From: Massilia sp. 9096
Lineage (GTDB): Bacteria; Pseudomonadota; Gammaproteobacteria; Burkholderiales; Burkholderiaceae_D
Assembly: GCF_000745265.1 (NCBI RefSeq)
Contig: NZ_JQNN01000001.1
Coordinates: 5,490,449-5,554,448 of the forward strand
Length of the DNA stretch: 64,000 nucleotides
Reading direction: 5' to 3'
Shown here: one piece after another, positions 11,652 through 55,574 of the stretch
Position numbering within the stretch: position 1 is the stretch's first letter
How the letters are laid out: every line of letters starts with the position of its first letter
Made by a program: the position numbers and the translations under genes
Notes under the pieces: generated by a model
Databases searched by the model: none
What the model saw: only the letters and a program-made list of their open reading frames with translations
Told to the model about the DNA's origin: nothing

Positions 11652-14402
11652 TTAGAAGGTGTAGGTGCCGCGAACGTAGTAGGTACGGCCGATCGGATCG
11701 GTGTAGCGCGCATCGTAGCCGGCCTGGAAGGTCTGGCTCTGGTACGACAGCGGCGGATCGCGGTCGAACAGGTTACGCACGCCGAAGGTCAGGCCGAGGC
11801 CCTTCTTCTGGTTCCACGACACGTAGCTGTCGAACGTGGTGTACGAAGCGACGCGGAAGCCCAGCGGCTGGAAGTCGCTGGCCAGGGTGCTGGCGCTGCC
11901 TGCGCCCTGGTCCAGGTAACCGGTCTTGTAACGCGCGGTCAGGCCTGCCGACAGCTGATCCTTGTTCCAGACCAGGTTGGTCGTGTTCTGCCAACGGAAG
12001 ATCGGACCCGAGCCCGAGAACACATTGACGTTCTGCAGCCAGTCGCCACCCGGTTCGTTCTGGTACTCGTACTTGTGGATGTACGTTGCGTTCGAGGCCA
12101 GGGTGAAGTTACCGAAGCGGCCAGTGCGGTAGCGGTAGTTCAGCGACAGGTCGACACCGTTGGTGATCGTGCCACCCAGGTTCTGGGTACGGTCATCGAT
12201 GTAGCCGCAAGTTGCCGGGTTCGGGCACTGCGAGCCGTCAACTGCCAGTTCGCCGGCCGGGTTGCGATGGTATACCGACGAGAAGCGGCCGTATTGGGTC
12301 GCATCGAAGATGTCTTCCTGGCTCAGGCTGCTGATGGTGTTACGCAGGAAGATCGCCCACAAGTCGACACCGACGCTCAGGTCCTTGACCGGCTCGATCA
12401 TGACGCCGAGGGTGACGTTCTTCGACTTCTCTGGCTGCAGAGCGGTGTTACCGCCGCCCAGAACCTGGAACTGCTGTTTGCAGACCGACGAATAAGCGTG
12501 GCCGTTCAGCGGGGTCTTGCCGTCCGGGCAGTTGACCGGGTCGCTGTAGGTGCCGCCGGTGTTGGTGTAGGTCTGCGATGCGTTGATCTCATACAGCGAC
12601 GGCGCACGGAAACCGGTCGAGTACGAACCGCGGAACAGCACGGCGTCGACCGGCTGGAAGCGGAACGAGACCTTTGGGTTGGTCGTGTTGCCGAAATCGC
12701 TGAATTTGTCGTAGCGGCCCGACAGGGTCACGTCCAGCGACTTGATGATCGGCACGTTGATCTCACCGTAGACAGCGTAGGTGTGGCGGGTACCTGAATT
12801 GAACGAGGTCGGGTCGATACCGGTCGAAGCCTGCACCTTCGTGGCGAAATCGGTGTTGGCAGCGCTGGTGAACTTGTCGTAACCCGCTTGGGCGCCCAAT
12901 GCCAGGCCGACACCGCGGCCGGCGTTCAGCCAGTCACCCAGTTCGCGGCTTGCATGGAAGTCCAGGCCGGTCGATTGGCCGCGGGCGTGTTGTACTTCGC
13001 CCGACAGGCCGGCCGAATTTAGCAGCGCGGTACCGGCGGCGGTCTGGTCGCCGAACGGGTTGATGACGCCGTTGAGCACGCCTTGGCTGATGATATCGCC
13101 ATTGCTGTAGCCGATCAGGACTTCCTTGACGCGGTTTTCGTTCCAGGTCGCGGCAGTGTTGTAGTCCCAGCCAGCGATGTTGCCTTCCAGGGACAACACC
13201 AGACGCTGCTGGTTGTTGGTGTTCTTGTCCTGGCGCGCGCCGTTCGGCAGGTCGCGCCAGCGCACCTGGATCCAGCCCGGCTGCGTGCCCGGCGGATTGT
13301 AGGTCGGCGACTGATAGTTCGGGTCCAGGCCGGCACCGGTCGGATAGAACGGGCTGGTCTTGTTCATGTACAGGCTGCCGTACGGGACCGGGGCGATCTG
13401 GGTCGCCACTACGCTCTGGCTGGTCAGGTACTCGAGGCCCAGTTCATGACCGCCCGGCAGTTTCAGGGTGCCGCGGAACAGGCCGGAATCGCGGATGTTG
13501 CGCGGAACGTAGTCGACGAAGGACGAGGTGGTCATCGTGCAACCGCCGGCGCCGTTCGAGATCAAGTCGACACCGCTGGCGCAGCTCGGCGCAGCCGGGT
13601 TGCCGGCGACGCCCTTCGGGTTCAGCGTGCCCGCTCCCTGGCTGAAGTTTGCCGGGTAGGTCGAGGCCGACAGACCGCCCGAGTAACGGGTGTTGTACGG
13701 ACGCTCGTTACCGGCGATGTGGTTCTGTTCCTGGTGGTCGATCACCGCCGAAACGTTCCAGCCCTGGGTATCCAGGTCGCCCCAGCCGTAGGCCACGTTG
13801 CCGTTATAGCTGCGGCCGCCGGCGTGCTGCGGCGAGTCGGTGCCGAGGGTGATGACCCCGCCCTGGAAGTCTTTCTTGGTGATGAAGTTGATCACGCCGC
13901 CAACGGCGTCCGAGCCATACAGCGCGGATGCGCCGTCGCGCAGCACTTCGACGCGCTCGAGCGCGGCGAACGGAATCATGTTGAGGTCAGGCGCGGAGCT
14001 GTCGTAGGCGTTGTTCGCCAGGCGACGGCCGTTCAGCAGCACCAGGGTCTTGTTGGCGCCGATACCACGCAGGTTGGCGAACGAAGCGCCACCGGTGGAT
14101 GCGCCAACCGACTGGCTGGTGCCGGTCTGGGCTTGCGACACGCTCAGGTTCGCCATCACCTGTTCGATGGTGGTGATACCTTCACGCTTCAGGTCTTCAG
14201 CGCGGATGACGGTGACCGGCACTGCGGTCTCGCCATCGATGCGCTTGATCGCGGAACCGGTGATCTCGACACGCGCGACCGGTGCTTGCTGCACCTCTTG
14301 GGTCTGCGCCATGGCGTGGGCGGATAAGCCCAGACCGGCGGCGATCGCCGTACCCGAGAACACGAGGCGCAGGGACCTCGCGATGATTTTTTCTGTAAGC
14401 AT
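11652..14402 (-). CDS. TonB-dependent outer-membrane receptor (TBDR2)
   Basis: A 916-aa receptor. The signal peptide (MLTEKIIARSLRLVFSGTAI, ending SAHAMA) is followed by a plug that starts VEITGSAIKRIDGETAVPV and contains FANLRGIGANKTLVLLNGRR and VEVLRDGASALYGSDAVGGV. The barrel ends YVRGTYTF. The start has an AGGAAGAAG ribosome site. Its N-terminus resembles TBDR1 (SRSVRVMF against ARSLRLVF), suggesting the two share ancestry within this locus. No STN domain and no adjacent anti-sigma/sigma pair. Ligand unknown. Confidence 0.93.
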   Translation of the reverse strand: MLTEKIIARSLRLVFSGTAIAAGLGLSAHAMAQTQEVQQAPVARVEITGSAIKRIDGETAVPVTVIRAEDLKREGITTIEQVMANLSVSQAQTGTSQSVGASTGGASFANLRGIGANKTLVLLNGRRLANNAYDSSAPDLNMIPFAALERVEVLRDGASALYGSDAVGGVINFITKKDFQGGVITLGTDSPQHAGGRSYNGNVAYGWGDLDTQGWNVSAVIDHQEQNHIAGNERPYNTRYSGGLSASTYPANFSQGAGTLNPKGVAGNPAAPSCASGVDLISNGAGGCTMTTSSFVDYVPRNIRDSGLFRGTLKLPGGHELGLEYLTSQSVVATQIAPVPYGSLYMNKTSPFYPTGAGLDPNYQSPTYNPPGTQPGWIQVRWRDLPNGARQDKNTNNQQRLVLSLEGNIAGWDYNTAATWNENRVKEVLIGYSNGDIISQGVLNGVINPFGDQTAAGTALLNSAGLSGEVQHARGQSTGLDFHASRELGDWLNAGRGVGLALGAQAGYDKFTSAANTDFATKVQASTGIDPTSFNSGTRHTYAVYGEINVPIIKSLDVTLSGRYDKFSDFGNTTNPKVSFRFQPVDAVLFRGSYSTGFRAPSLYEINASQTYTNTGGTYSDPVNCPDGKTPLNGHAYSSVCKQQFQVLGGGNTALQPEKSKNVTLGVMIEPVKDLSVGVDLWAIFLRNTISSLSQEDIFDATQYGRFSSVYHRNPAGELAVDGSQCPNPATCGYIDDRTQNLGGTITNGVDLSLNYRYRTGRFGNFTLASNATYIHKYEYQNEPGGDWLQNVNVFSGSGPIFRWQNTTNLVWNKDQLSAGLTARYKTGYLDQGAGSASTLASDFQPLGFRVASYTTFDSYVSWNQKKGLGLTFGVRNLFDRDPPLSYQSQTFQAGYDARYTDPIGRTYYVRGTYTF

Positions 14403-51155: not shown

Positions 51156-54077
51156 TCAGAACGTGTAGCGCGCCCCCACCGTGTACGTGCGTCCGCGTGC
51201 GCCGTCGAAGTCGAGCGGGTTGTACGACTGTGCGCCGTAGGTCAGCGGATCGAGCGGCGGGATCTTGTCGAACATGTTCAGGATCGAGGCCGAGATCTCC
51301 CAGCGCGAACCCGGCGACGGTTTCCAGCGCCCGGTCAGGTCGAAGGTCGTGAACGAAGCCAGCTCGCAGCCGCTCGGCGCCGGCGACCCGTCGGCGAAGG
51401 TGCTGGCGCAGCCGTCCGGGTCGCCCTGGAACAGGATGTTCTTGATCTTGCTGCGGTAGTTGACCGAGAGGGTCAGGCGGACGTTGCTGCGTTCCCAGGT
51501 GGCGTGGAAGTTGGACCGGTTCCGCGGCGTGCCGACACAGTTGGTCACGTCGCAGTTGCCATGGGTGCCGGCAAAGTCGCGCTGGGTGCCGTCGCGGTCG
51601 CTGCGCAGCCACTTGTACAGGTGCGTCCACTTGATGTCGAACACCAGGTTGCCGAAGTCCTGCGGCAGCTTGACGCGCTGGCGGCCATCGACGTCGAAGC
51701 CCTTGACGACGGTTTCGGCCGAGTTTTCGTAGCGTACCAGCACGGCCGTGATCGGGCCCGGGTCGCCTGCCAGGCCGGGCACGGCGCCGGCCAGGTCGCG
51801 CGCCACGCTGCCGTTGGCGATCGCGACGGGAACCTGTCCCTGGTTGATCTCGTCCTTGCGCTTGATGCGCCAGAAGTCGAACGACACGCTGGACGCCGGC
51901 AGCGGGTCCCAGATCACGCCCAGGTCCCAGTTGGTCGAGCGCTCGGGTGACAGGTTCGGGTTCGGCGAGGTGATCAAGGCAACCGACGCCGGCGAACAGG
52001 CGCTGGTGACCCCGAGCGCGCAGCGGGCCGGATCGGCCGCGGTGGAGTACGCGGCCAGGCCGCCTCGCCCGTTCTCGGCCGGGCCAGGGGCGCGGAAGCC
52101 GTGGCCCCAGTTGCCGCGCAGGGCGAGCGAGCGAATCGGCGTGTACTTGATGCCCAGCTTGGGCGTGTACGCCGTGCCGATGCTGTCGTCGGTGAAGTGG
52201 TCGATGCGCCCGGCGGCGGTCAGTTCGAGGTTGCTCAGGATCGGCGCCAGCGCTTCGACGTAGAGCGCGGCCACGTTGCGCCCGCCCGCATAGGCCGAAT
52301 AGCCCAGCCCGATGATGTTGCCGCGCTCGGTGCCGGAGGTCGGGTTCAGCGTGGTGTACTGGTGACGCCACTCGGCGCCGGCGGCGATGCCTATGTCGCC
52401 CCCCGGCAGCCAGCCGCCGAAGTTGCGCGTGACCCGGAAGTCGATCTGGCCGAGCCGGGTGTCGGCCGAGTTGTTCAGGTTGGGCGACAGCGCGGCGTAC
52501 AGCGCCGGCGAATTCAGCCCTGCGTTCTCGCCGATGCGCCACACGGTGCCCAGCGGCAGGGCGCGGTAGGCCGCGCTGCCGAGCGTGGCGGCCGCCACGT
52601 TGGCCGCGCTGGGGTCGAGCAGGGCAAAGGTGACGTCGCGCTGCAGGTAGCCGGTCCAGTCCTGGTTGGTGTGGTTGTGCGAGAACAGGATGCCGGCGGT
52701 CCAGTCCCAGCCGAAGTGGCTGCCGCTCGCCCCGGCGACCCAGCGCTGGAAGAAGGAGCTGATGCTGGTGGTGCGCGGGCCGACGTCGGCCGCCAGGTAG
52801 CGCAGGCGGGCCGCGCTGCCGAAGTAGGGATTGTCGGGATGGGCGGCGCCGAGCTGCACGCCGGCGTTGTTGACCGGCCCGCCGGGGTAACCGACCGAGC
52901 CGCTCACCGTCGAGGGCGTGGTCGAGGTATCGGTGGCGCTGCTGTACAGGTTGACCTCGGCGAACGCCTCGATGTCGTAGGGCAGCTTGAAGGTGGCGCG
53001 CCCGTACAGGCTGAGGTTTTCCTGCTTGGGCAGGACCTGGCCGTAGACCGAGGTGCTGTCGATGAGGCAGCCGCCGCCCGGGTCGCCCTGCGGGTGCCGG
53101 GTGAAGTTGGCGCAGGCCGCGCCCGGGAAGAAGCGGGTGAAATTGACGCCGGCCGGGTCGGCGCGGTTGTAGTATTCGCTGGTGGCCGGATCGCGCACGT
53201 TGCCGTTGACGGCGCTGCCGGCCGTCGACTGGCCGCGCAGGATCGCACCGGTCCCGCCCAGCGCCTCGTTGGCCGAGTAGCCCCAGGGACGCAGGTCGAT
53301 CTTGCCGAGGTAGTCGCGGTCGGTGCGGTCGCGGTTCCAGATTTCGCGGAATTTCTTGTATTCGACCGAGAAGAAGGCGTTGCGGCCGTCGGTGTCCATG
53401 TCGCCGAAGCCTTTGGTGAACGCGAAGTTCCACTGCCGGCCGTCCCAGTTGCGGGCGATGCCGGTCTGGCCGCGGATCGTGGTGCCTTTGAAGTCGTGCC
53501 GCAGGATCACGTTGACCACGCCGGCCACCGCATCCGAGCCGTAGATGGCGGAGGCGCCGTCGAGCAGGATCTCGATGCGGTCGACGGCGTCGGCGGGGAT
53601 CACGTTCAGGTCGGTGAACTGCTTCTGGCCATCGTCGGCCAGGCCGTAGGGCGCGACGCGGCGGCCGTTGATCAGCACCAGGGTCGAGGCCACGCCCAGG
53701 CCGCGCAGCGAGACCCCCGAGGCGCCGGCCGCGAAGCCGTTGCCGAAGCTGGTCGGCACCGAACCGGCATTGTCGACCGCCAGCGTCTGCAGCAGCTCGG
53801 CCACGGTCTGGCGGCCCGAACGTTCGATGTCGGCGCGGTTCACGGTGAGGACCGCGGACGCGGTCTCGGCCTGGGAGCGGCGGATGTTGGAGCCGGTGAT
53901 TTCGACGCGCGCGACCGGCGCCTGGGCAGGGGCGGCTTCCTGGGCAAGCGTGGACCCCGGCGTGGTCCTGGGCGCGGCCTCCTGGGCATGGGCCGGCGGC
54001 GCCATCAGCGCGATGCCGATGGCGCCGCCCCCGGCGAACAGGCGGCGTATGGTTCGGGATATCGGTGTTTCAGTCAT
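51156..54077 (-). CDS. TonB-dependent outer-membrane receptor (TBDR8)
   Basis: A 973-aa receptor. I choose ATG 54077 (MTETPISRTIRRLFAGGGAI), seven bases after GGAG; the frame is open a further 38 codons upstream without family likeness. The signal peptide ends PPAHAQ. A low-complexity Ala/Pro/Gln stretch (about residues 30-52) precedes the plug, VEITGSNIRRSQAETASAV, with SLRGLGVASTLVLINGRRV and IEILLDGASAIYGSDAVAGV. The barrel ends VGARYTF. It faces the tldD operon tail to tail. No partner genes are adjacent. Ligand unknown. Confidence 0.93.
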   Translation of the reverse strand: MTETPISRTIRRLFAGGGAIGIALMAPPAHAQEAAPRTTPGSTLAQEAAPAQAPVARVEITGSNIRRSQAETASAVLTVNRADIERSGRQTVAELLQTLAVDNAGSVPTSFGNGFAAGASGVSLRGLGVASTLVLINGRRVAPYGLADDGQKQFTDLNVIPADAVDRIEILLDGASAIYGSDAVAGVVNVILRHDFKGTTIRGQTGIARNWDGRQWNFAFTKGFGDMDTDGRNAFFSVEYKKFREIWNRDRTDRDYLGKIDLRPWGYSANEALGGTGAILRGQSTAGSAVNGNVRDPATSEYYNRADPAGVNFTRFFPGAACANFTRHPQGDPGGGCLIDSTSVYGQVLPKQENLSLYGRATFKLPYDIEAFAEVNLYSSATDTSTTPSTVSGSVGYPGGPVNNAGVQLGAAHPDNPYFGSAARLRYLAADVGPRTTSISSFFQRWVAGASGSHFGWDWTAGILFSHNHTNQDWTGYLQRDVTFALLDPSAANVAAATLGSAAYRALPLGTVWRIGENAGLNSPALYAALSPNLNNSADTRLGQIDFRVTRNFGGWLPGGDIGIAAGAEWRHQYTTLNPTSGTERGNIIGLGYSAYAGGRNVAALYVEALAPILSNLELTAAGRIDHFTDDSIGTAYTPKLGIKYTPIRSLALRGNWGHGFRAPGPAENGRGGLAAYSTAADPARCALGVTSACSPASVALITSPNPNLSPERSTNWDLGVIWDPLPASSVSFDFWRIKRKDEINQGQVPVAIANGSVARDLAGAVPGLAGDPGPITAVLVRYENSAETVVKGFDVDGRQRVKLPQDFGNLVFDIKWTHLYKWLRSDRDGTQRDFAGTHGNCDVTNCVGTPRNRSNFHATWERSNVRLTLSVNYRSKIKNILFQGDPDGCASTFADGSPAPSGCELASFTTFDLTGRWKPSPGSRWEISASILNMFDKIPPLDPLTYGAQSYNPLDFDGARGRTYTVGARYTF

Positions 54078-54292
54078 GTCCGGACTCCAGTGCGGTAGAT
54101 GGCTTCGATGGGATTGCCTGGCCGACGCAGGGCGCGGGTCGGCCGGGGCTTGCCATGACTGTTGCATCGGGAGGCGGAGCAAGGCTGACATCTCTCAACC
54201 GGGATGGGTAAGGCGAAACAGGCTGTCGGCTTCGCGCAACCGATTGTCTATAACGACGCTCGCACACGACGTATGACGCTTGGATAAAGCGC
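54078..54292. other. divergent upstream region of TBDR8 and the aroG leader
   Basis: About 215 bp with no supported gene; it should contain the TBDR8 promoter on the minus strand. No clear operator was seen. Confidence 0.4.
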
Positions 54293-54322
54293 TTGCCAAT
54301 CGCGCGGCATTGTTGTTATAGT
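54293..54322 (+). promoter_or_regulatory. sigma-70 promoter of the aroG attenuator leader
   Basis: TTGCCA at 54293-54298, 18 bases, TATAGT at 54317-54322. Transcription would begin near 54329, about 18 nt ahead of the leader-peptide ATG. Confidence 0.65.
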
Positions 54323-54346
54323 CAGTCGGACACTTCGGAACCCACC

Positions 54347-54415
54347 ATGCGCCAGATCGTTTTCTTCCACTTTTATTTTTGGTTCAGCCATTCCAGCCCA
54401 ACGGCGGTGGAGTAG
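54347..54415 (+). CDS. aromatic-rich leader peptide of aroG
   Basis: A 22-codon reading frame, MRQIVFFHFYFWFS then HSSPTAVE and a TAG stop. Codons 6-13 read F-F-H-F-Y-F-W-F: five Phe, one Tyr and one Trp within eight codons (54362-54385), which is far beyond chance. It sits between a promoter and an intrinsic terminator directly before DAHP synthase, the layout of an amino-acid attenuator such as pheL or trpL. The GGCGGT near its end (54403-54408) can pair with ACCGCC of the terminator stem. Its ribosome site is poor (CGGAACCCACC before ATG). Expression not proven, but the composition and context make the call strong. Confidence 0.85.
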   Translation: MRQIVFFHFYFWFSHSSPTAVE

Positions 54416-54488
54416 CGGCAGGTTCACGCAACAACAGAACGAAGTCGACGCAAGATTCCAGAAAAACCGCCAGCGATGGCGGTTTTTT
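54403..54488 (+). promoter_or_regulatory. transcription attenuator of aroG
   Basis: The terminator form is AAACCGCCA (54464-54472), loop GCGA, TGGCGGTTT (54477-54485), then TTT. The alternative pairing is GGCGGT (54403-54408) with ACCGCC (54466-54471). A ribosome stalled on the Phe/Tyr/Trp codons leaves GGCGGT free to form the antiterminator; a ribosome that reaches the TAG at 54413 covers it, and the terminator forms. It ends 25 bp before the aroG start. Confidence 0.8.
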
Positions 54489-54512
54489 CATTTTCAAGAA
54501 CGGAGAACAGCA

Positions 54513-55574
54513 ATGCCCCGCACCGACGACCTACGCATCCGCGAAATGAAGGAACTCACGCCCCCGTCGCACCTGATCCGCGAGTTTCCGGTCACCGCGG
54601 CGGCCGAGCAGACCGCTTTCCAGGCGCGCGTGGCGCTGCATCGCATCCTGCACGGCCAGGACGACCGCCTGATGGTGGTGGTCGGTCCATGCTCGATCCA
54701 TGATCCGAAGGCGGCGCTGGAGTACGCGCGCCGCCTGGTCGAGCAGCGCGATCGTTTCAAGGGCGAACTCGAAATCGTCATGCGCGTGTATTTCGAAAAG
54801 CCGCGCACCACGGTCGGCTGGAAGGGCATGATCAACGACCCGTACATGGACAACAGCTTCCGCATCAACGACGGCCTGCGCATGGCGCGCGAGCTGCTGC
54901 GCGACATCAACGAGCTGGGCCTGCCGGCCGGCACCGAGTTCCTCGACGTGATCAGCCCGCAGTACATCGCCGACCTGATCAGCTGGGGCGCGATCGGCGC
55001 CAGGACCACCGAGTCGCAGGTGCACCGCGAGCTGGCGTCCGGCCTGTCCTGCCCGGTCGGCTTCAAGAACGGCACCGACGGCAACATCAAGATCGCCGCC
55101 GACGCCATCAAGGCGGCTTCGCAGGCGCACCATTTCCTGTCGGTGACCAAGGGCGGCCATTCGGCGATCGTGTCGACCTCCGGCAACGAGGATTGCCACA
55201 TCATCCTGCGCGGCGGCAAGGCCCCGAACTACGACGCCGCCAGCGTCGAGGAAGCCTGCAGGCAGCTGGCCGCCAACGGCCTGGCCAGCCGCCTGATGAT
55301 CGACGCCTCGCACGCCAATAGCAGCAAGAATCCGCAGAACCAGATTCCGGTGTGCGCCGACATCGGCCGCCAGCTCGCGGCGGGCGACACCCGCATCGTC
55401 GGCGTGATGGTCGAGTCGCACCTGGTCGGTGGGCGCCAGGACCTGGTGCCGGGCCAGGCGCTGACCTACGGCCAGTCGGTCACCGACGGCTGCATCGAGT
55501 GGGACGCCAGCGTGGCCGTGCTGGAAGACCTGGCCGCGAGCGTGCGCCAGCGCCGCCTGCGCGAGGATAACTGA
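54513..55574 (+). CDS. aroG: 3-deoxy-7-phosphoheptulonate synthase, class I
   Basis: A 353-aa DAHP synthase joining phosphoenolpyruvate and erythrose-4-phosphate, the first step of the shikimate pathway. Family motifs: VVVGPCSIHDP near residue 50, MRVYFEKPRTTVGWKG near 90, IGARTTESQVHRELASG near 165, GFKNGTDGN, and IDASHANSSK near 270. It follows E. coli AroG closely along its length, so feedback inhibition by an aromatic amino acid is likely, but the exact effector (Phe or Tyr) cannot be read reliably here. A GGAG ribosome site precedes the ATG. Transcription is expected to be controlled by the attenuator just upstream. Transketolase in this window makes its erythrose-4-phosphate substrate. 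Confidence 0.96.
   Translation: MPRTDDLRIREMKELTPPSHLIREFPVTAAAEQTAFQARVALHRILHGQDDRLMVVVGPCSIHDPKAALEYARRLVEQRDRFKGELEIVMRVYFEKPRTTVGWKGMINDPYMDNSFRINDGLRMARELLRDINELGLPAGTEFLDVISPQYIADLISWGAIGARTTESQVHRELASGLSCPVGFKNGTDGNIKIAADAIKAASQAHHFLSVTKGGHSAIVSTSGNEDCHIILRGGKAPNYDAASVEEACRQLAANGLASRLMIDASHANSSKNPQNQIPVCADIGRQLAAGDTRIVGVMVESHLVGGRQDLVPGQALTYGQSVTDGCIEWDASVAVLEDLAASVRQRRLREDN

Follow-up and report, generated by a model that had tools for sequence, protein, structure and literature searches.

The window, by which we mean the whole 64,000-nucleotide stretch of DNA that was analysed, is Massilia-like and forms the last 64 kb of its contig. It carries aroG, which encodes a type I DAHP synthase whose closest solved structures are those of the Phe-sensitive E. 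coli AroG. By AroG, Massilia agri is the nearest named relative among the matches listed (96% for residues 1-166, 92% for the whole protein). Upstream of aroG lie a promoter, a short frame rich in aromatic codons and a terminator (Table 1), which a first-pass annotation had interpreted as a leader peptide and attenuator. A TonB-dependent receptor gene (51156-54191, minus strand) is divergent from the aroG leader.

Table 1. Features of the aroG leader region, in window coordinates
Feature	Position	Strand	Details and basis
Sigma-70 type promoter	54293-54322	+	TTGCCA (54293-54298), spacer of 18, TATAGT (54317-54322)
Shine-Dalgarno-like CGGAA 5' of the leader ATG	54336-54340	+	Read directly
Leader peptide frame, MRQIVFFHFYFWFSHSSPTAVE	54347-54415	+	Read directly; counterpart in 57/57 same-genus relatives
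Aromatic control codons F6 F7 H8 F9 Y10 F11 W12 F13 (putative stall zone)	54362-54385	+	
Region 1, ATTCCAGCC	54390-54398	+	Predicted to pair with region 2, protecting the terminator (-7.1 kcal/mol)
Region 2, GGCGGTGGAGT	54403-54413	+	Predicted partner is region 1 or region 3
Nearly invariant block, TAGCGGCAGGTTCACGC, starting at the stop codon	54413-54430	+	Consensus, folding
Region 3	54455-54471	+	ATTCC (54455-54459), ACCGCC (54466-54471)
Intrinsic terminator (regions 3:4) with T run	54462-54488	+	Motif search, folding (-15.4 kcal/mol)
aroG ribosome-binding site, GGAG	54502-54505	+	Read directly
aroG, type I DAHP synthase	54513-55574	+	NF006723 match above cut-off; closest solved structures

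The leader frame and its setting

The promoter, which had been called a good one, agrees with the consensus at 10 of 12 positions, with one such site found against 0.1 expected in shuffles. It is the sole promoter-like site found in 53900-54800, and transcription would start near 54329. As expected of an attenuator, an intrinsic terminator (ACCGCCA-GCGA-TGGCGGT followed by a T run) stands between leader and gene, 24 bp 5' of aroG. The claim of a terminator at this place held in our own terminator search and in RNA folding, both of which recovered the hairpin, but not in a promoter/terminator scan, from which it was absent (0 found against 1.0 expected in shuffles); the likely reason is that the T run is consumed by A-T pairs of the hairpin.

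The 22-codon frame with its run F-F-H-F-Y-F-W-F at codons 6-13, on which the first-pass annotation had been built, can be read directly from ATG at 54347 to the stop TAG at 54413-54415, and seven of the eight codons at 54362-54385 encode Phe, Tyr or Trp. CGGA precedes the leader in many but not all of the alignment rows listed. Aromatic codons make up 8.1% of the 31 long ORFs of the window, giving a probability of about 1.7e-7 per position for at least seven in eight. Short frames with at least six aromatic residues in 10 codons occur twice in the 64 kb on both strands, namely the aroG leader with seven and a frame at 11962 with six; in a set of 81 stretches, each of 350 nt and taken 5' of an ORF of 150 aa or more, a count of seven was reached in one and of six in another. 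When the stretch 5' of aroG was shuffled 200 times with dinucleotides preserved, seven was never reached. The frame is thus a short one with clustered codons for end products of the pathway, as ribosome-mediated attenuators need, and would be translated. No NCBIfam family was matched by the three leader peptides tested.

The last 11 kb of the contig (about 52982-64000 of the window) appears repeated at the contig start. Over its first 3 kb, the part compared, the copy at the contig start shows numerous one-base gaps, including one within the leader, and the window copy is intact; the leader copy at the contig start looks broken because the circular assembly was not closed. A second attenuator copy at the contig start as a paralogue was rejected as assembly overlap. 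An RNA model built from Oxalobacteraceae leaders matches only two aroG copies in this genome, one being the assembly duplicate. A second DAHP synthase gene (G000:C1:3490371-3491411; 51% identity) has no frame with at least four aromatic residues in 10 codons within 0.6 kb upstream, and none was seen over some 1.5 kb 5' of the match to prephenate dehydratase in the same genome.

In E. coli, aroG is a member of the TyrR regulon. Membership of that regulon presupposes TyrR in the genome, and the TyrR DNA-binding family TIGR04381 had no match in the genome of the window; among 14 control genomes, E. coli alone matched, as the positive control.

Alternative pairings and conservation in the genus

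The reading that GGCGGT near the end of the leader could pair with one half of the terminator stem was borne out: in the 2:3 state, GGCGGT (54403-54408) pairs with ACCGCC (54466-54471). The block that starts at the stop codon forms a small hairpin and part of a hairpin nested within the 2:3 state. Most of it is dispensable for the pairings of regions 1-4, and it might serve as a pause hairpin or as the seed of a released leader RNA. The folding energy of the whole leader RNA is ordinary (z -1.46; 18/200 shuffles as low). At gathering scores Rfam gave no match in the window. At E up to 10 over 361 bases the best was RNAI (23.9 bits), a terminator look-alike, and no riboswitch was among the matches; Phe_leader (RF01859) reached 19.8 bits at E 0.6, below its gathering score of 55, so that by score the element is not a member.

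Of 60 same-genus relatives, 57 with an intact orthologue were examined for conservation; the other three are G021, in which an orthologue was not found, G054, whose gene is divided between contig ends, and G025. The promoter, the leader, GGCGGTGGA of region 2 and the terminator are present in all 57, and CTTGCCA-N17..20-TA[T/G]AGTC stands upstream of aroG in all 58 loci (the window and its relatives). GGCGGTGGA is likewise present in 58/58, and in 11 of these the leader reads through region 2 in a different frame: it is shifted by one base relative to region 2 and acquires a new C-terminus with GGCGGTGGA unchanged, its stop ending 32 rather than 13 nt after the start of region 2 (19 nt later). 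Leader lengths in the genus vary by whole codons. Since frame shifts and whole-codon insertions and deletions occur with GGCGGTGGA kept, the reading frame and the RNA element appear, from these comparisons, to be conserved for separate reasons.

To follow the effect of ribosome position, the RNA was folded with a ribosome at each stall site in turn, masking 13 nt counted from the first base of the A-site codon. In the window, the predicted probability of the 2:3 antiterminator was 0.98-1.00 for a stall at codons 11-15 and 0.86-0.95 at codons 6-8, and just 0.63 and 0.50 at codons 9 and 10; with the ribosome at codon 17 through the stop, 2:3 was lost. With the ribosome at the 3'-most aromatic codon among codons 1-13, the 2:3 probability exceeded 0.5 in 57 of 58 leaders, the exception being that of G019, in which 2:3 was not favoured, and with the ribosome at the stop the 3:4 probability exceeded 0.5 in all 58. 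Stall position thus selects the hairpin in the folding model while region 4 is unmade. This agrees with the pheL/trpL switch logic proposed at first, the model placing the antiterminator at the aromatic codons and the terminator at the stop. Once region 4 is made, the terminator 3:4 wins thermodynamically at every stall position; therefore, if the model holds, switching between 2:3 and 3:4 must be kinetic.

That the terminator fold is the most stable state would also suit a plain micropeptide gene that has its own promoter, Shine-Dalgarno-like sequence and terminator and involves no switch, aroG being expressed from its own promoter or by constant read-through. Such a gene would leave it unexplained that the peptide ends vary freely while region 2 keeps its match to the 5' arm of the terminator, and the sole promoter-like site of 53900-54800 precedes the leader; we find this explanation scarcely credible.

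Compensatory changes are few in Oxalobacteraceae. Across 61 distinct Oxalobacteraceae sequences, the 1:2 stem is alifold consensus helix 1, with 98.8% of cells paired, and none of its pairs changed on both sides. In the terminator 99.3% of cells are paired, and double changes were found at one pair in 11 sequences (A-U to G-C) and at another in 2. Compensatory changes in the two stems, which the first-pass annotation had named as possible support, were thus found in this family for the terminator but not for 1:2. In this family 11 of the 20 pairs are invariant, and for two of the five measures of covariation the value was no higher than in shuffles (132/500 and 465/500 as high). The protector hairpin 1:2 expected of an attenuator is present in the window and in Oxalobacteraceae.

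Distribution in other families and codon choice

Loci with named organisms were collected with a profile of AroG N-termini as the best 80 of 590 confirmed, and 78 were scored, two (L104, L145) having too little upstream DNA. A comparable aromatic leader precedes aroG in 44 of the 78 (42 by rule and 2 by hand). The two counted by hand, at score 5, were L096 and L124, the latter being weak (8/60 shuffles reach its score). L135 (score 5, 0/60 shuffles) and L144 (score 4, AYWYF, matching terminator) were left uncounted. Two of the named Massilia loci, L096 and L097, have leaders identical to those of the relatives G014 and G004 and are probably of the same species. Among the 78, leader-bearing loci belong mainly to Oxalobacteraceae, Burkholderiaceae, Comamonadaceae and Xanthomonadaceae. 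Leaders were called in Massilia, Rugamonas, Janthinobacterium and Noviherbaspirillum; in Burkholderia, Caballeronia, Paraburkholderia, one Cupriavidus and one member of Alcaligenaceae; in Polaromonas, Variovorax, Limnohabitans, Curvibacter, Xylophilus and Xenophilus; in Xanthomonas, Stenotrophomonas and Pseudoxanthomonas (Lysobacteraceae in NCBI ranks); and in several unplaced metagenome bins. By rule, no leader was found among the scored loci of Enterobacterales (0/7), Shewanella (0/3), Chromatiaceae (0/3), Rhodocyclales (0/5, including L135), Chitinimonas (0/2) and Polynucleobacter (0/2 named), nor at Cupriavidus necator chromosome 2, in Undibacterium or at one Photobacterium locus. Conservation of the aromatic run, which the first-pass annotation had named as a check across Oxalobacteraceae, therefore extends from 57/57 same-genus relatives to other families.

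A metagenome-assembled genome labelled Devosia (L144) has a possible leader, MTNPRPTAAYWYFTTRLQMADGGTLLA, with its matching terminator before a DAHP synthase gene; the record carries an alphaproteobacterial label, and a mislabelled bin or a transfer is possible.

When the leader label is placed on a rapidly built AroG tree (79 rows), 8 changes are required, compared with 25.8 in shuffles; the starred branches force at least 3 leader changes, and many forks are weak. On this tree the leader is clustered, with several gains or losses. Genomes of other families of the order were examined by the same rule (25 of 28 with a match; G067, G077 and G100 out), and 8 of the 25 pass; 7 of these enter the structure counts, G086 having a long frame unlike the others. 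Six genomes from other genera of the family were listed, and 5 of them match the Oxalobacteraceae RNA model at E of at most 1e-9, all five matches lying 5' of a DAHP synthase gene with an aromatic leader. Of 300 genomes of the order, 33 matched at E of at most 0.001. Of 20 model loci inspected, the window included, 12 stand before a DAHP synthase gene (L177, L179-L186, L194, L195 and L196, the motif of L195 differing by one residue) and 8 elsewhere (L187-L193, L197); 16 further weak matches are outside this count. Among loci weaker than 1e-9, 3 of 11 precede a DAHP synthase gene.

For structure across families, 52 leaders were compared (the 44 named, 7 of other families and the window). A GGCGG counterpart of region 2 is present in other families, and the inner base of regions 2/3/4 covaries as T/A/T in 21, C/G/C in 13 and A/T/A in 2. 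The remaining 16 do not form a full complementary triple; they include 3 with U-G, a wrong pattern pick (L106) and the window itself, which has a mismatch (C/A/T). The inner two 2:3 pairs are formed in 81 of 104 cases compared with 68.7 in permutations (0/5000 as high), a figure to be taken as support and not as a probability, since related sequences were compared and a GGCGG/CCGC pattern steered the search. A pattern-free search found a terminator by rule in 50 of the 52. In 37 of these 50 the 2:3 duplex was reached by at most 10/200 shuffles, 36 being counted because the hairpin of L151 is misassigned; in 13 it was not significant against shuffles. An antiterminator that excludes the terminator and is conserved or covarying, as an attenuator needs, is present.

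The amino acids encoded are unequally kept. In the 42 leaders of 22 codons, codons 7, 11 and 13 encode Phe in 42, 42 and 41, and codon 12 is 24 times Trp, 17 times Tyr and once His. Over codons 1-14, 31 of the 58 Massilia-type leaders contain Trp and 53 contain Tyr. Among the 52 leaders compared across families, Phe occurs in 52, Tyr in 50 and Trp in 37 (in one of these, L097, the Trp codons lie beyond the run). Judged by these comparisons, Phe is universal, Tyr nearly so and Trp optional. The proposal that all three aromatic amino acids are read fits the genome of the window, but Trp is replaced by Tyr in many relatives; a core signal of Phe and Tyr with Trp optional is supported by the sequences.

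The leaders also favour TTT, a rare synonym for Phe. TTT accounts for 51 of 692 Phe codons in the 31 long ORFs of the window, for 205 of 261 within codons 1-14 of the 58 Massilia-type leaders, and for 134 of 184 in the runs of the 44 named leaders, whose own aroG genes have it in 56 of 301; in the run of the window itself it is used in 2 of 5. Either slow decoding or a need for unstructured, U-rich RNA may explain this preference. In 11 Burkholderia-type leaders, chosen for their shared peptide start, TTT/TTC and TAT/TAC swaps occur within FYFYFF, and this third-base variation is evidence of coding at the sequence level. Codons 7, 11 and 13 are close to constant across the 34 distinct Massilia-type leaders, with TTT nearly throughout, and single-base codon differences over all pairs comprise 773 synonymous and 1225 nonsynonymous (raw counts); with TTT near-fixed and 773 below 1225, synonymous change gives little evidence of coding in these leaders.

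These patterns bear on an RNA-only attenuator, in which the choice between 2:3 and 3:4 would be set by a protein or metabolite bound to the leader RNA, the frame being incidental. It would account for region 2 being kept despite the frame change, for the near-constant TTT of Massilia-type Phe codons, as in a U-rich RNA element, and for the excess of nonsynonymous differences in these leaders, and the invariant block past the stop is otherwise unaccounted for. The whole-codon insertions and deletions, the synonymous swaps in the aromatic run of Burkholderia-type leaders, the aromatic runs within otherwise very different peptides of other families and the lack of a riboswitch among the Rfam matches up to E 10 all speak against it, and we consider it very unlikely. 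This reading and the plain micropeptide were both rejected.

A predicted attenuator and its known counterparts

Taken together, the aroG leader is very probably a ribosome-mediated transcription attenuator of the trpL/pheL type. The element in the window has the sequence features that define such attenuators, and the folding model supports a stall-dependent choice of hairpin. The promoter, the leader, the exclusive pairings, the conservation and the covariation were established by sequence comparison, from which we infer control of aroG by the leader; translation of the leader, termination in the cell and a response to each amino acid would be expected. RNA polymerase would start near 54329, with a ribosome trailing on the leader. 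A shortage of Phe-tRNA, probably also of Tyr-tRNA and here perhaps of Trp-tRNA at codon 12, would stall the ribosome within codons 6-13 and leave region 2 free, most cleanly for a stall at codons 11-13, which would disable region 1 too. Region 2 would then capture newly made region 3, so that 3:4 would not form in time and aroG would be transcribed. With charged tRNA plentiful, the ribosome would reach the stop and cover region 2 or, if released, allow 1:2 to form; with region 2 covered or paired, the 3:4 terminator would form and transcription would stop near 54488.

In E. coli, pheL and trpL leaders have control codons, regions 1-4 and a terminator. The aroG leader is like pheL-pheA and trpL-trp in its control-codon leader, in the exclusive pairings of regions 1-4 and in the terminator before the gene; it differs in standing before DAHP synthase, the common first step, and in mixing Phe, Tyr and optional Trp codons. 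By the account in PMC11802643, which refers to Neshat et al. 2014, the C. glutamicum aroR leader (Phe-Tyr-Phe) precedes the DAHP synthase gene aroF, whose expression is raised by Phe but not Tyr limitation; the leader is also predicted in PMC4046766. From these descriptions, aroR is likewise an aromatic leader attenuator on a DAHP synthase, although in an actinobacterium and with a Phe-Tyr-Phe run. The uORFC-13-1 motif before aroF of Acholeplasma, as presented in PMC8632094, resembles the present element as a predicted upstream ORF with Phe codon(s) and a terminator before a DAHP synthase gene, and comprises 24 sequences from one genus and environmental DNA; the same source cites a 1980 hypothesis of attenuation of E. 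coli aroF. For Vibrio, Table 7 of PMC1173090 gives putative attenuators from the Merino database for aroAI-alpha_Y > tyrA, which are alike in preceding a gammaproteobacterial DAHP synthase gene and unlike in being listed without a leader peptide.

An attenuator sensing Phe alone, with Tyr and Trp codons as passengers, would be a narrower form of the attenuator preferred here. It draws on the presence of Phe in every leader compared and at codons 7, 11 and 13, on the response of C. glutamicum aroF as described in PMC11802643 and on the resemblance of the enzyme to the Phe-sensitive isozyme, but Tyr persists in almost every leader, and at codon 12 a different aromatic residue (Trp or Tyr) stands in 41/42. 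We regard it as a real possibility, at somewhat under an even chance.

A term search of the main text of a 2010 survey of premature terminators (PMC2965389) did not find aroG or DAHP named. For an aroG leader in Burkholderiales or Xanthomonadales, no description was found among the open-access papers listed, at the level of titles and the starts of abstracts. Vitreschak and colleagues reportedly published a comparative survey of proteobacterial attenuators in 2004, which may predict one. The first-pass annotation knew of no described example for this gene in this group, and none was found for this proteobacterial family; DAHP synthase leaders as such are known or predicted elsewhere. The element is of a kind already described, and what appears new is the family, together with its breadth and codon bias.

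More speculatively, the leader may act as an OR-gate for shortage of Phe, Tyr or, where coded, Trp in many Burkholderiales and Xanthomonadaceae, replacing the enteric logic of TyrR and three isozymes; rare TTT codons may tune stalling, and the terminated leader RNA, which includes the invariant block past the stop, may also act in trans. As a joint proposal this is tentative and rather doubtful. The attenuator itself would be a simple explanation of how a large set of proteobacteria, at least one of them without the E. coli regulator TyrR, regulate the entry step of the shikimate pathway. With it comes a sizeable family of leader peptides with no match in Rfam (the window at gathering score) or NCBIfam (three peptides), and the leader would be worth attention in studies and engineering of aromatic production in such bacteria.
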